From Thermoplasmata archaeon (GTDB taxonomy: Archaea > Thermoplasmatota > Thermoplasmata > Lutacidiplasmatales > UBA184): a DNA stretch of 35,907 bases. Position 1 is the stretch's first letter. Every line of letters starts with the position of its first letter. Below, in pieces: positions 2,041-14,301 of the stretch. The notes under the pieces were generated by a model. That model searched no databases and was not told where the DNA came from. It was given only the letters and a program-made list of their open reading frames with translations. The DNA lies in NCBI GenBank assembly GCA_030037695.1, contig JASHQF010000007.1:1-35907 (forward strand), given 5' to 3'. A program made the position numbers and the translations under genes.

Positions 2041-2085
2041 CTGCATAAGCCGAAGGTCATGCCGAGTTGACCTGTCCGTTATCCC
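2041..2085. promoter_or_regulatory. Divergent promoter region: TATA-like ggcttatgcag (- strand, 2041-2051) for fhs, central element GGTCATGCCGAGTTGACC (2055-2072), TATA-like cgttatccc (2077-2085) for the 2108 gene
   Basis: TATA-like boxes centred about 32 nt and 28 nt upstream of the two start codons (2014 -, 2108 +) flank a GGTCA...TTGACC inverted repeat. Confidence 0.5.
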
Positions 2086-3007: not shown

Positions 3008-3931
3008 ATGGCACCGATCTCCCCGACCTCCCGGATCTGGATGGACGGACAGCTGGTTCCCTGGACGGAGGCGCGCATCCATGTCCTGACCCACGGCCTC
3101 CACTACGGCTTCGCGATCTTCGAGGGGATCCGGTGCCACAAGACGTCCCGGGGGACCGCGGTGTTCCGCCTCCGCGAGCATCTGGAGCGTTTCCGCGACA
3201 GCGCCAAGATCTACGCGATGCCGCTCCGGTACTCGCCGGACGACCTCGAGAAGGCGGTCGTCGACCTGGTGCGGAGCAACGGGGCGCCCGAGGCGTACAT
3301 CCGACCGATCGCGTTCACGGGCTATGGCGAGATGGGTCTCGATCCGTCCGGAAGCCGCCTCGACGTGGCGATCGGGATGTGGCCGTGGGGGGCGTACCTC
3401 GGCGCCGCCGGGAACGAGCGGGGCGTGCGGGCGACCGTCTCAAGCTGGACCCGGGTCGATTCGCGCTCGCTACCCCCGCAGGCCAAGTGCGCGGCGAATT
3501 ACGCGAACGGCATCCTCGCCAAGCTGGAGGCGAAGGCCGCCGGTTACGACGAGGCCCTCCTCCTCAACACGGCAGGGCTCGTCTCGGAAGGGCCGGGAGA
3601 GAACGTCTTCCGCGTTCGCAACGGGGTGTTGAGCACGCCTCCGGCGAGTGCAGGGATCCTTCGGGGGGTCACCCGGGACACGATCGTGCGCCTCGCGCGC
3701 GAAGCCGGCATCCCGTTCCAGGGGACGGGGTTCACCCGGGAGGAACTGTTCACGGCGGACGAGCTGTTCTACACCGGGACCGCCGCGGGCGTCACCCCGA
3801 TCCGCGAGGTCGACGGGCGTCCGATCGGCACGGGCGTCTACCCGATCGCCCGGCGGCTCCAGGGCCTGTACGACGACGCCGTGCGCGGCCGACTGCCCCA
3901 GCACGAAGCCTGGCTCACCTTCGTACCATGA
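3008..3931 (+). CDS. ilvE: Branched-chain amino-acid aminotransferase (class IV)
   Basis: 307 aa; WMDGQLVPWTEARIHVLTHGLHYGFAIFEGIRCH, SSWTRVDSRSLPPQAKCAANYANGILAKLEAKAAGYDEALLLNTAGLVSEGPGENVF, YTGTAAGVTPIREVDGR. Confidence 0.95.
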   Translation: MAPISPTSRIWMDGQLVPWTEARIHVLTHGLHYGFAIFEGIRCHKTSRGTAVFRLREHLERFRDSAKIYAMPLRYSPDDLEKAVVDLVRSNGAPEAYIRPIAFTGYGEMGLDPSGSRLDVAIGMWPWGAYLGAAGNERGVRATVSSWTRVDSRSLPPQAKCAANYANGILAKLEAKAAGYDEALLLNTAGLVSEGPGENVFRVRNGVLSTPPASAGILRGVTRDTIVRLAREAGIPFQGTGFTREELFTADELFYTGTAAGVTPIREVDGRPIGTGVYPIARRLQGLYDDAVRGRLPQHEAWLTFVP

Positions 3932-11320: not shown

Positions 11321-11338
11321 GGTCAAGCCGAATTGACC
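11321..11338. promoter_or_regulatory. GGTCAAGCCGAATTGACC inverted-repeat element upstream of GNAT gene
   Basis: Perfect GGTCAA/TTGACC arms; 16/18 identical to the element at 2055-2072. Confidence 0.5.
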
Positions 11339-11386
11339 GGGGGTTCTTCCGCCGGTACGGCCGGTACCCCGTCGGGGGATCGGCCG

Positions 11387-11986
11387 ATGTCGGAGGACGT
11401 CACGCTCGACGTGCCCATCGACTGGGAGCTCGAGGGGCCGGCCACGCTGCGGGACGGCACCCGGATCTGGATCCGCCCGGTCCGACCTGCGGACCGGAAC
11501 GACCTGATCGAGTTCGTCGACCATGTCTCGGTCGACTCGCTCGAGCTGCGGTACTTCGCCGCGACCCGGCCCGAGACCGCCGTCGAAGCGATGCTACGCC
11601 CAAGCCCGGGGGAGGACCGGGTCTCCCTGCTGGCGATCGGGGGAGCCGAAACGGGACCGCGCGTACTGGGGCAAGCCGAGTACGTCCGCGACCAGGCCGA
11701 TCCTTCCACCGCGGAGACGGCGTTCCTCGTGCGGGACGCGTGCCACGGGCTCGGCTTGGGCACGATCCTCCTCCACTGGCTCGCCCGGATCGCGCGCTGC
11801 CGGGGCGTGCACCGATTCGTGGCCTACGTTCAGGCGACGAACCAGCCGATGATCGACGTCTTCCGCAACAGCGGCTTTCCGGTCGTCGAGTCCGGATCCG
11901 GCTACGTGCTCCGGGTCGATTTCTCGATCCTGGAGCCCCCCGCGCAGTTCCCGTTCGTCGAGCTCGAGCACGCCACGGCGGGCTGA
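11387..11986 (+). CDS. GNAT-family N-acetyltransferase
   Basis: 199 aa from ATG 11387; RDGTRIWIRPVRPADRNDLIEFVDHVSVDSLELRYF..., LVRDACHGLGLGTILLHWLARIARCRGVHRFVAYVQATNQPMIDVFRNSGF. Confidence 0.85.
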   Translation: MSEDVTLDVPIDWELEGPATLRDGTRIWIRPVRPADRNDLIEFVDHVSVDSLELRYFAATRPETAVEAMLRPSPGEDRVSLLAIGGAETGPRVLGQAEYVRDQADPSTAETAFLVRDACHGLGLGTILLHWLARIARCRGVHRFVAYVQATNQPMIDVFRNSGFPVVESGSGYVLRVDFSILEPPAQFPFVELEHATAG

Positions 11987-12097: not shown

Positions 12098-12487
12098 TCA
12101 CCGGGGGGCCATGCTGCGGTCCCGCGGTCGCGCCGTCGACCCTCCGCCGAGAAGGGATCGGGCCAACGCGACCAGCGGCTCGGCCGAGAGCGGGAGCGGG
12201 ACCAGCCGCAACCCGGGTCGATCGGCGAGCTGGGGATCCCTCGCGCCGATCACCACCAGGCGATCGACCGGGAGCTCCCCTCGCGACCAACGCCGAGCCG
12301 TGCGGCAGAACGGCTCGTTGCACGCGACGATGACCGCCGCCGTGGGCGAAGGACCGCTCAGTCCCGGGTCGTCCCGCGCGACATCGTGGACGAGACGGCA
12401 CGGGATCCCCTCGGCCCGCAGGAGGTCCAGGATCGAACGGCCGAGGCTCGGGGTCTCCCCGACGATCAGGACTTCCCGAGGGCCCAT
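12098..12487 (-). CDS. Receiver-like (pseudo-receiver) domain protein
   Basis: 129 aa; MGPREVLIVGETPSLGRSILDLLRAEGIPCRLVHD...AAVIVACNEPF...DRLVVIGARD; flavodoxin-like beta/alpha alternation, no phospho-acceptor Asp at the expected place. Confidence 0.55.
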   Translation of the reverse strand: MGPREVLIVGETPSLGRSILDLLRAEGIPCRLVHDVARDDPGLSGPSPTAAVIVACNEPFCRTARRWSRGELPVDRLVVIGARDPQLADRPGLRLVPLPLSAEPLVALARSLLGGGSTARPRDRSMAPR

Positions 12488-12592
12488 CGAGCGGGGACGA
12501 CGGGCCCGGGGGATAGTCGTCCCGTCAGCCCCGGTTGACTCGCGCGGTCCCCGGCCACCGTCCGGGGCGTCGGCTCGAGCGGGGGAACCCCC

Positions 12593-14092
12593 ATGAGCCC
12601 CCTCCCGCTCCGCCGGTCACCGCCGGTGACCGAGGACGTGCTCGACGCCGCACTCTACGATCGGCTCTTCCGGGCCGCGCCGGTGGGCGTCGCGCTCGTC
12701 ATCGCTCCGGGGACGATCGCGTGGGCGAACCCCGCGTACTTCGCCGTGACCGGCCGAACGCCGTCGGTCGTCGGGACCGACTTCCACGCGATCCCCGACC
12801 ACGACGGGACCTGGTCGCCGGCGATCCGTGCCGCGATGGACGCGGCCCTGAGGGAGGGGACCCCGAGCACGTTCCCCTCGGTCCGGGCCCGCTACCGGGA
12901 GGGCTCGGGAGGCACCTTTCTGGACGTCGACGTGCAGCCGCTCGACGGGACGCCGGGGGAGCCCCGGCAGGCCGTCCTGCTCGTCCGGGACGTGACGGAC
13001 CGGGCCGCGGAGCACGAGCGGGCCGAGCTGTTCTACGCCTCGTTCCGCTCGTCCACGAACGCGATGCAGCTCACCGACGCGGCGGGGATCATGGTCGACG
13101 TGAACCCGGCCTACGAGCGGATCTACGGCTACTCCCGAGCCGAGTGCGTCGGGCGACGCCCCAACCTGGTCCGCAGCCGGCACACGCCGGCCGAGGTGTA
13201 CGAGCGCATGTGGCAGGAACTGCTCGATCCCGAGCGCGGCTACTGGTCGGGGGAGATCCTCAACCGCGATCGGTGGGGGCGCGAGCGGCCCGTCCTCCTG
13301 TCGATCACGGCGATCCGCGACCGCGGCGGGGCGATCACCCACTACCTCGGGGTGGCGGTCGATCTGTCCGAGCAGCGCAGTTGGGAGATGCGCGCCGCTC
13401 ACTCCGACCGGCTCGCCTCGGTCGGGCAGCTGGCGGCGGGGGTCGCCCACGAGATCAACACCCCGCTCGCGAACGTCATGCTCGTCGCGGAGAGCGTGCG
13501 CCGGCGCTCGCAGGACCCGTGGGTCCTCGACCGGCTCGGGACGATGACCGAGCAGATCGAGTCGGCGGCGAGGATCGTTCGGGGCCTTCTCGACTTCGCC
13601 CGTCGGGAGGAGCCCCACACCGTCGAGCTCGATCTTATCGAAGTCGTTCGCACCGCGACGGAGTTCCTGCGGGGGAAGCGGTCGGCGGACGTGACCCTCC
13701 AGGAGGAGTATCCTGCGGCGCCCGTCCCCGTCCTCGGCGATCGCGGTTCGCTCGTGCAGGTCGTCACGAACGTCCTCAACAACGCCTACGACGCGATCCC
13801 GGGCGTAGGGTCGGTCCGCGTGGCGGTGCGGCGCCGCGGCAACCGCGCCGAGGTCGAAATCGTGGACAGCGGCCCCGGGATCGCACAAGAAGTGCTCGCG
13901 CGGATCTTCGAGCCGTTCTTCACTACGAAGCCCGAGGGTCAGGGCACGGGCCTCGGGCTGGCGATCTGCCACGGGATCGTCCAGTCGCATCACGGGACGA
14001 TCACGGCCCGGAACGTGCCGGGCGCCGGCGCCGGATTCCTCGTATCGCTGCCGATCGCGGGTACGGCCCGGACGCGCCCGGACCCGGCGTGA
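12593..14092 (+). CDS. PAS-PAS sensor histidine kinase
   Basis: 499 aa; two PAS blocks (WANPAYFAVTGR..., VDVNPAYERIYGYSRAECVGR), H-box RLASVGQLAAGVAHEINTPLANVM, N/G boxes NVLNNAYDAI, DSGPGIAQEVLARIFEPFFTTKPEGQGTGLGLAIC. Confidence 0.95.
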   Translation: MSPLPLRRSPPVTEDVLDAALYDRLFRAAPVGVALVIAPGTIAWANPAYFAVTGRTPSVVGTDFHAIPDHDGTWSPAIRAAMDAALREGTPSTFPSVRARYREGSGGTFLDVDVQPLDGTPGEPRQAVLLVRDVTDRAAEHERAELFYASFRSSTNAMQLTDAAGIMVDVNPAYERIYGYSRAECVGRRPNLVRSRHTPAEVYERMWQELLDPERGYWSGEILNRDRWGRERPVLLSITAIRDRGGAITHYLGVAVDLSEQRSWEMRAAHSDRLASVGQLAAGVAHEINTPLANVMLVAESVRRRSQDPWVLDRLGTMTEQIESAARIVRGLLDFARREEPHTVELDLIEVVRTATEFLRGKRSADVTLQEEYPAAPVPVLGDRGSLVQVVTNVLNNAYDAIPGVGSVRVAVRRRGNRAEVEIVDSGPGIAQEVLARIFEPFFTTKPEGQGTGLGLAICHGIVQSHHGTITARNVPGAGAGFLVSLPIAGTARTRPDPA

Positions 14093-14301
14093 CGGGGCGC
14101 CCGAAGGGGGGCCTGCGCTGGGTCGGATCAACGAGGGTCGAGAAGGTTTCGCGGCGACGGTGCGGCCTGCCCTGAAGCGACGGGCGCCTACCCTCCCGGG
14201 GCCGTCCCTCCGGGTCCTCGTCGGCTGCAATTCACGGACGGTTTAAGTGGGGGGCCTCGCTCCTCCCACCGAGGTCCCAGAGTTGGGAAGGGGTGGAAGA
14301 A

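Follow-up and report, generated by a model that had tools for sequence, protein, structure and literature searches.

A palindromic element at a fixed distance upstream of BRE/TATA, the putative operator of an activator in one family of uncultured Thermoplasmata

An 18-bp palindrome, GGTCAA-N6-TTGACC, recurs at a constant distance from the TATA box in promoters of one archaeal family, and it is probably an operator bound by a dimeric transcription factor, sequence-specific and most likely an activator, that acts upstream of BRE/TATA. The element was followed from a 35,907-nucleotide stretch of a Thermoplasmata archaeon (contig JASHQF010000007.1; hereafter the window) into related genomes, which are MAGs. 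Protein binding, a dimeric state, activation and a signal are what we infer from sequence. Motif and regulon appear to be undescribed and the mechanism to be of a known kind; the literature on TTGACC inverted repeats in archaea yielded nothing relevant. To our knowledge few archaeal activators are known, and we found none described for this archaeal group.

Site 1 (GGTCATGCCGAGTTGACC, positions 2055 to 2072, no strand assigned; 11/12 arm bases) is common to two divergent promoters. On the minus strand lies fhs (formate--tetrahydrofolate ligase; 332 to 2014; PF01268, E=4e-177), its start 40 nt from the palindrome edge; on the plus strand lies the gene of a helical protein of an undescribed family (2108 to 2905; hereafter the 2108 protein), whose ATG is exactly 35 nt past the palindrome. 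An initial annotation had reported this 18-mer and its recurrence at 11321 to 11338, and both copies are present and 16/18 identical. The second (site 2, GGTCAAGCCGAATTGACC, plus strand; 12/12 arm bases) has an ATG 48 nt downstream, that of a GNAT acetyltransferase gene (11387 to 11986, plus; PF00583), and is followed by a weak TATA-like TTCTTCC (11344-11350, plus) that is a poor match. The TATA-like boxes said to flank site 1 are likewise in place, each 5 nt from the palindrome: GTTATCCC for the 2108 gene (2078 to 2085, plus) and, for fhs, TGCATAAG, which reads CTTATGCA on the minus strand (2042 to 2049, minus; composite score, 26.8).

With up to 3 mismatches, the degenerate 18-mer was found twice in the window, against 0.07 expected from dinucleotide-preserving shuffles, and sites 1 and 2 are the only near-perfect matches in the window's own genome (1.58 Mb, ~78% complete, 159 contigs). 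The window holds at least two further sites that the initial annotation had not listed. Site 3 (GGTCAAGCTCGCTTCACT, then gggcg, CTTAACTC; 2954 to 2971, plus) has a start codon 36 nt downstream, where an ilvE-type class IV aminotransferase is encoded (3008 to 3931, plus; PF01063, E=9e-53), and is among the composite-pattern matches described below. Site 4 (AGTCAACCGGGGCTGACG on the minus strand, then ggacg-ACTATCCC; 12523 to 12540, minus) lies 35 nt from the start codon of a receiver-like protein (12098 to 12487, minus), a recurrent target named by reading its sequence, for which no accepted Pfam match was obtained. A weak candidate, CGTCGGCTGCAATTCACG-gacgg-TTTAAGTG (14219 to 14236, plus), upstream of a DUF981 gene (14293), scored 15.9, with just 5.8 from the palindrome part, and was left out of the confirmed sites; membrane-protein genes resembling the DUF981 gene have a site in genomes G004 and G047.

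Comparison of 39 sites places the specificity in the arms GGTCAA/TTGACC and the 6-bp gap. The initial annotation had noted a core, GCCGA, shared by the two copies; their 16/18 identity stands, and the importance of the core is unsupported, since GCCGA is weakly preferred over the 39 sites and its identity in two copies is therefore not the important part.

The same arrangement is retained in related genomes, where conservation in orthologous promoters, another check that the initial annotation had named, was seen for the fhs/2108 region, 2108 homologues, ilvE, GNAT and others. In G043 (locus L064), whose 2108 protein is 61% identical, the fhs/2108 intergenic region keeps the palindrome, with TGTCATCTCGGGTTGACC aligned to site 1, and both flanking boxes, the fhs box as CTTATGCC and the 2108-side box unchanged. 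Site 3 is degenerate in the window; its G043 ortholog is a perfect 12/12 (GGTCAAGCTCGGTTGACC-ccgag-CTTAACTG). Homologues of ilvE with the site were found in G043, G040, G004, G021 and G012, and GNAT homologues with the same upstream site in G058 (L097) and G047 (41% identity). In two of the aminotransferase upstream regions (L030 of G040 and L039 of G004), a second, weaker palindrome lies 31 bp from the first; 31 bp is about three helical turns and thus the spacing expected for two dimers on one DNA face.

Across 63 genomes of the genus, GGTCAA-N6-TTGACC with at most 1 mismatch gave 177 matches, against 31 for a reversed palindromic control (summed rows). Sites were chosen at ≥11/12, so arm conservation among them is by construction, and the tests of spacing, location and target are independent of that selection. 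Genome G047 was covered to ~99%, in stretches, and G000 in part, with genes predicted by a simple codon-usage caller. At ≥10/12, G047 had 15 intergenic sites, and 180 half-sites permuted to the same base composition averaged 4.7; at ≥11/12, the numbers were 4 and 0.28. The intergenic excess occurred at the 6-bp gap only, and coding matches showed no excess over permuted half-sites. Among loci fetched by the motif alone, 64 of 81 distinct sites (~79%; ≥11/12) were intergenic. The intergenic-versus-coding comparison that the initial annotation had proposed thus came out in favor of the motif, also at the correct TATA spacing in G047 (17 intergenic, 2 coding). Site 1 is tallied as coding among the 81 because the caller made a spurious antisense open reading frame over 2057-2959. 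Several complete genomes, e.g., G018 and G026, have few or no sites. In G047 the regulon seems clustered: 24 of 45 composite intergenic sites are on contig C6 (L114, L128-L141), which makes up 19% of the assembly, and 2 are on the 380-kb contig C2.

The palindrome is set in a fixed promoter grid. In 39 intergenic promoter orientations with a start codon 26-62 nt away, a TTAW TATA core occupies +7 to +10 from the palindrome edge, A/T reaches 92% at both +9 and +10 (background, ~29%), and the bases right before the core are mostly G/C. Start codons cluster 34-36 and 43-48 nt from the palindrome, with the peak at 34-36. Matrices trained on sites outside G047 found, in this held-out genome, 17 intergenic and 2 coding sites at the true palindrome-TATA spacing; when the spacing was set to any of 17 other values, the intergenic count was 0-4. 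In G047 promoters at large, A/T content peaks at -26/-27 from the start codon, which fits leaderless mRNAs, and a model learned de novo from 628 palindrome-free promoters recovers a BRE-like element and a TATA core; in palindrome promoters, the best match to that model begins 1 or 2 bases past the palindrome. Fixed spacing, start distance and de novo core together place the palindrome at leaderless or short-leader promoters, immediately before BRE/TATA, and the constant spacing to TATA bears out the position that the initial annotation had proposed for an archaeal activator. BRE adenines appear modestly reduced at palindrome promoters: any A at -6 to -4 occurs in 9 of 23 palindrome promoters and 196 of 311 others (p=0.027; control from one genome), and A at -4 in 2 of 23 and 110 of 311 (p=0.01; small sample). 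A weaker core promoter as a whole was unsupported (p=0.30).

The genes downstream recur between genomes. In 20 genomes, 38 of 59 downstream genes fall into 14 families occurring in at least two genomes, and between-genome homologous pairs number 42; the remaining genes of those loci give 7.7 on average (maximum, 20). Recurrent targets are the 2108 family, class IV aminotransferase, GNAT, malic enzyme, thermosome, universal stress protein, 2-oxoacid:ferredoxin oxidoreductase gamma/delta (POR gamma/delta, PF01558), a ferredoxin/alpha operon (2-oxoacid oxidoreductase alpha, PF01855), cation ATPase, alcohol dehydrogenase, and DoxX-like, cupredoxin-like and receiver-like proteins; the cupredoxin-like, receiver-like and some DoxX-like names come from sequence reading, with no Pfam hit. 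Conservation in orthologous promoters extends to POR gamma/delta, thermosome and malic enzyme. Rarer targets are Dps-type ferritin, Hsp20, OsmC, AsnA (PF03590), proline-type aldehyde dehydrogenase and TusA. The target theme is central redox metabolism, amino acids and stress. A similar mix is found in the DosR dormancy regulon of mycobacteria, with universal stress proteins, Hsp20, a CBS-domain protein, ferredoxin and a cation ATPase; DosR, a bacterial response regulator, recognizes a different motif and acts at sigma-factor promoters, and no homology is implied. At two loci (L217 of G051 and L226 of G022), the site lies between a DoxX-like membrane protein gene and, by eye, an apparent divergent tRNA gene, and the membrane protein alone is at the expected distance (38 nt).

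Two targets belong to families with little annotation. The 2108 family is among the most recurrent, with homologues in 23 of 63 genus genomes (noted at L044, L064, L065, L067, L072-L075 and L078-L085) and homologues carrying the site down to ~20-30% identity. Its protein has no Pfam match above cut-off, and a 14-row alignment was made; the family reads as all-helical, with a variable N terminus, a conserved E-x6-P-L and a late Trp. That the 2108 protein is the regulator itself found no support: its AlphaFold model is a helical bundle (pLDDT 82) with no fold match in the PDB at E<0.001. Proteins resembling the receiver-like one are encoded downstream of sites in G023, G027, G033, G047, L105 and the sister-genus genome G229. 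In the window, the receiver-like gene is divergent from a gene for a PAS-domain histidine kinase (12593 to 14092, plus; PF08448, PF00512, PF02518); orthologous pairs in three other genomes have the palindrome too, in the intergenic space at L034 and L105 and next to the kinase gene at L224. The divergent pair is a possible signaling input of the regulon.

A composite pattern, GTCAAN6TTSACN5SNTWAW, delimits the taxonomic range. The 78 genus genomes yielded 29 matches and 0 control matches, and ten genomes from the family's other genera yielded 4 and 0. In the rest of the class (~170 genomes), the count was at background, with 5 matches and 3 control matches; the motif is restricted to one archaeal family. 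Of the sister-genus matches, one is 35 nt ahead of a 2108-like gene and another 34 nt ahead of a receiver-like gene. Scanning a genome-wide collection returned 40 matches, two of them from MAGs titled Thermoplasmata archaeon, and the rest resemble what chance should produce for a pattern of this length. GC content (near 71%) and genome size are consistent with a probable placement in "Candidatus Lutacidiplasmatales", which is described with ~69% GC, 2.1 Mb and aerobic and facultative anaerobic lifestyles (PMC9287336).

Under the preferred reading, a predicted dimer would bind GGTCAA-N6-TTGACC, with half-site centers 12 bp apart, immediately upstream of BRE/TATA at promoters with short leaders or none. 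Acting from this constant distance, the factor would most likely contact TBP and/or TFB and recruit them to promoters with a weak BRE, activating genes for 2-oxoacid:ferredoxin oxidoreductase, amino-acid and one-carbon metabolism, redox proteins and stress proteins; the one palindrome at 2055 may drive both fhs and the 2108 gene. The label "activator" derives from position, and position alone is not proof of activation. It is preferred because the grid has the geometry of Lrp-type activators and TFB-RF1 and because BRE adenines appear reduced (p ~0.03, small sample).

Archaeal Lrp-type activators bind, as dimers, a site whose position a few base pairs before BRE is highly constrained, and they contact TBP; elsewhere, genes under Lrp-type control include those for 2-oxoacid:ferredoxin oxidoreductases and ferredoxin and amino-acid genes (PMC2995911). 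Lrp/AsnC activators (Ptr2 of Methanocaldococcus jannaschii, Ss-LrpB, LysM) share the site position and target classes with the present system, whereas the operator sequence differs and the regulon here adds chaperonin, stress and cupredoxin-like genes. TFB-RF1 of Thermococcales recognizes a palindrome that precedes a weak BRE and a normal TATA by a conserved distance (PMC5937170); as there, the palindrome-promoter distance is conserved across a family of genomes. The TFB-RF1 motif is 13 nt long (TCTGAANTTCAGA), with two operons reported to be controlled; the motif here is 18 nt long and found at tens of promoters, and its sequence, GGTCAAN6TTGACC, is not the TFB-RF1 operator.

No protein was linked to the motif, and an Lrp/AsnC-family regulator is tentatively put forward as the single most likely binder, a guess based on site position and overlap with known Lrp targets: amino-acid metabolism and 2-oxoacid:ferredoxin oxidoreductase genes are both among the targets. 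Motif-rich and motif-poor genomes alike have 5-6 AsnC/Lrp genes in nearly every case checked, and no autoregulatory palindrome was seen at Lrp genes in the 30 loci examined. Each of the 20 genomes has HTH_10 (Bat-type) genes, with somewhat higher numbers where the motif is abundant, and Crp-type HTH hits are mostly below cut-off. The family-profile hunt (HTH_10, AsnC, Crp) gave no discriminating candidate, and no convincing palindromes were found at HTH_10 or AsnC genes.

The same position could serve repression: a dimer beside BRE would block TFB/TBP or RNA polymerase, with stress or nutrient signals causing derepression. The palindrome does border BRE, and some archaeal regulators repress from promoter-proximal sites; the repressor sites in that account, however, overlap the core promoter or sit downstream of TATA (PMC2995911). 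Here the palindrome never leaves the upstream side, and 17 of the qualifying G047 sites share a single phase and spacing, which is activator geometry, and the BREs look weaker, not stronger. We therefore regard a repressor operator as unlikely. Strict spacing to TATA would also suit an extended core promoter peculiar to this lineage, in which the element is recognized by TFB, one of its paralogues or a general factor, and by no regulator. Against this, only some 20-45 of ~1,400 G047 genes have the palindrome, the targets are functionally non-random, and the two-fold palindrome is unlike the asymmetric BRE found de novo in the 628 other promoters, so this explanation is quite improbable. A chance palindrome, or a repeat spread through sequence duplication, is refuted by the enrichment, spacing and ortholog tests, despite a few GGTCAN8TGACC matches in coding sequence: permuted half-sites and other spacings did not give equal counts, and gap sequence and flanks differ between sites, which are thus not copies. 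Enrichment, fixed spacing, intergenic placement, ortholog conservation and recurrent targets all agree with the initial suggestion of a real regulon motif, as opposed to a chance palindrome.

With an activator operator as the preferred reading, a wider version is conceivable, although we hold it to be doubtful: an undescribed global energy/redox regulon of a whole uncultured Thermoplasmata family, whose activator, from a new or re-purposed regulator family, would rescue weak-BRE leaderless promoters and would be wired to the PAS kinase/receiver-like pair and a new helical family. The activator-site reading makes predictions that are testable in vitro with recombinant TBP/TFB, namely a transcription start site ~36 nt from the palindrome edge and one protein at tens of promoters. 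The grid of palindrome, BRE, TATA and start codon needs only MAG sequence to be recognized; it supplies a ready-made regulon for soil archaea that are uncultured, names ~14 recurrent target families and links unannotated families (2108, receiver-like) to central redox metabolism.
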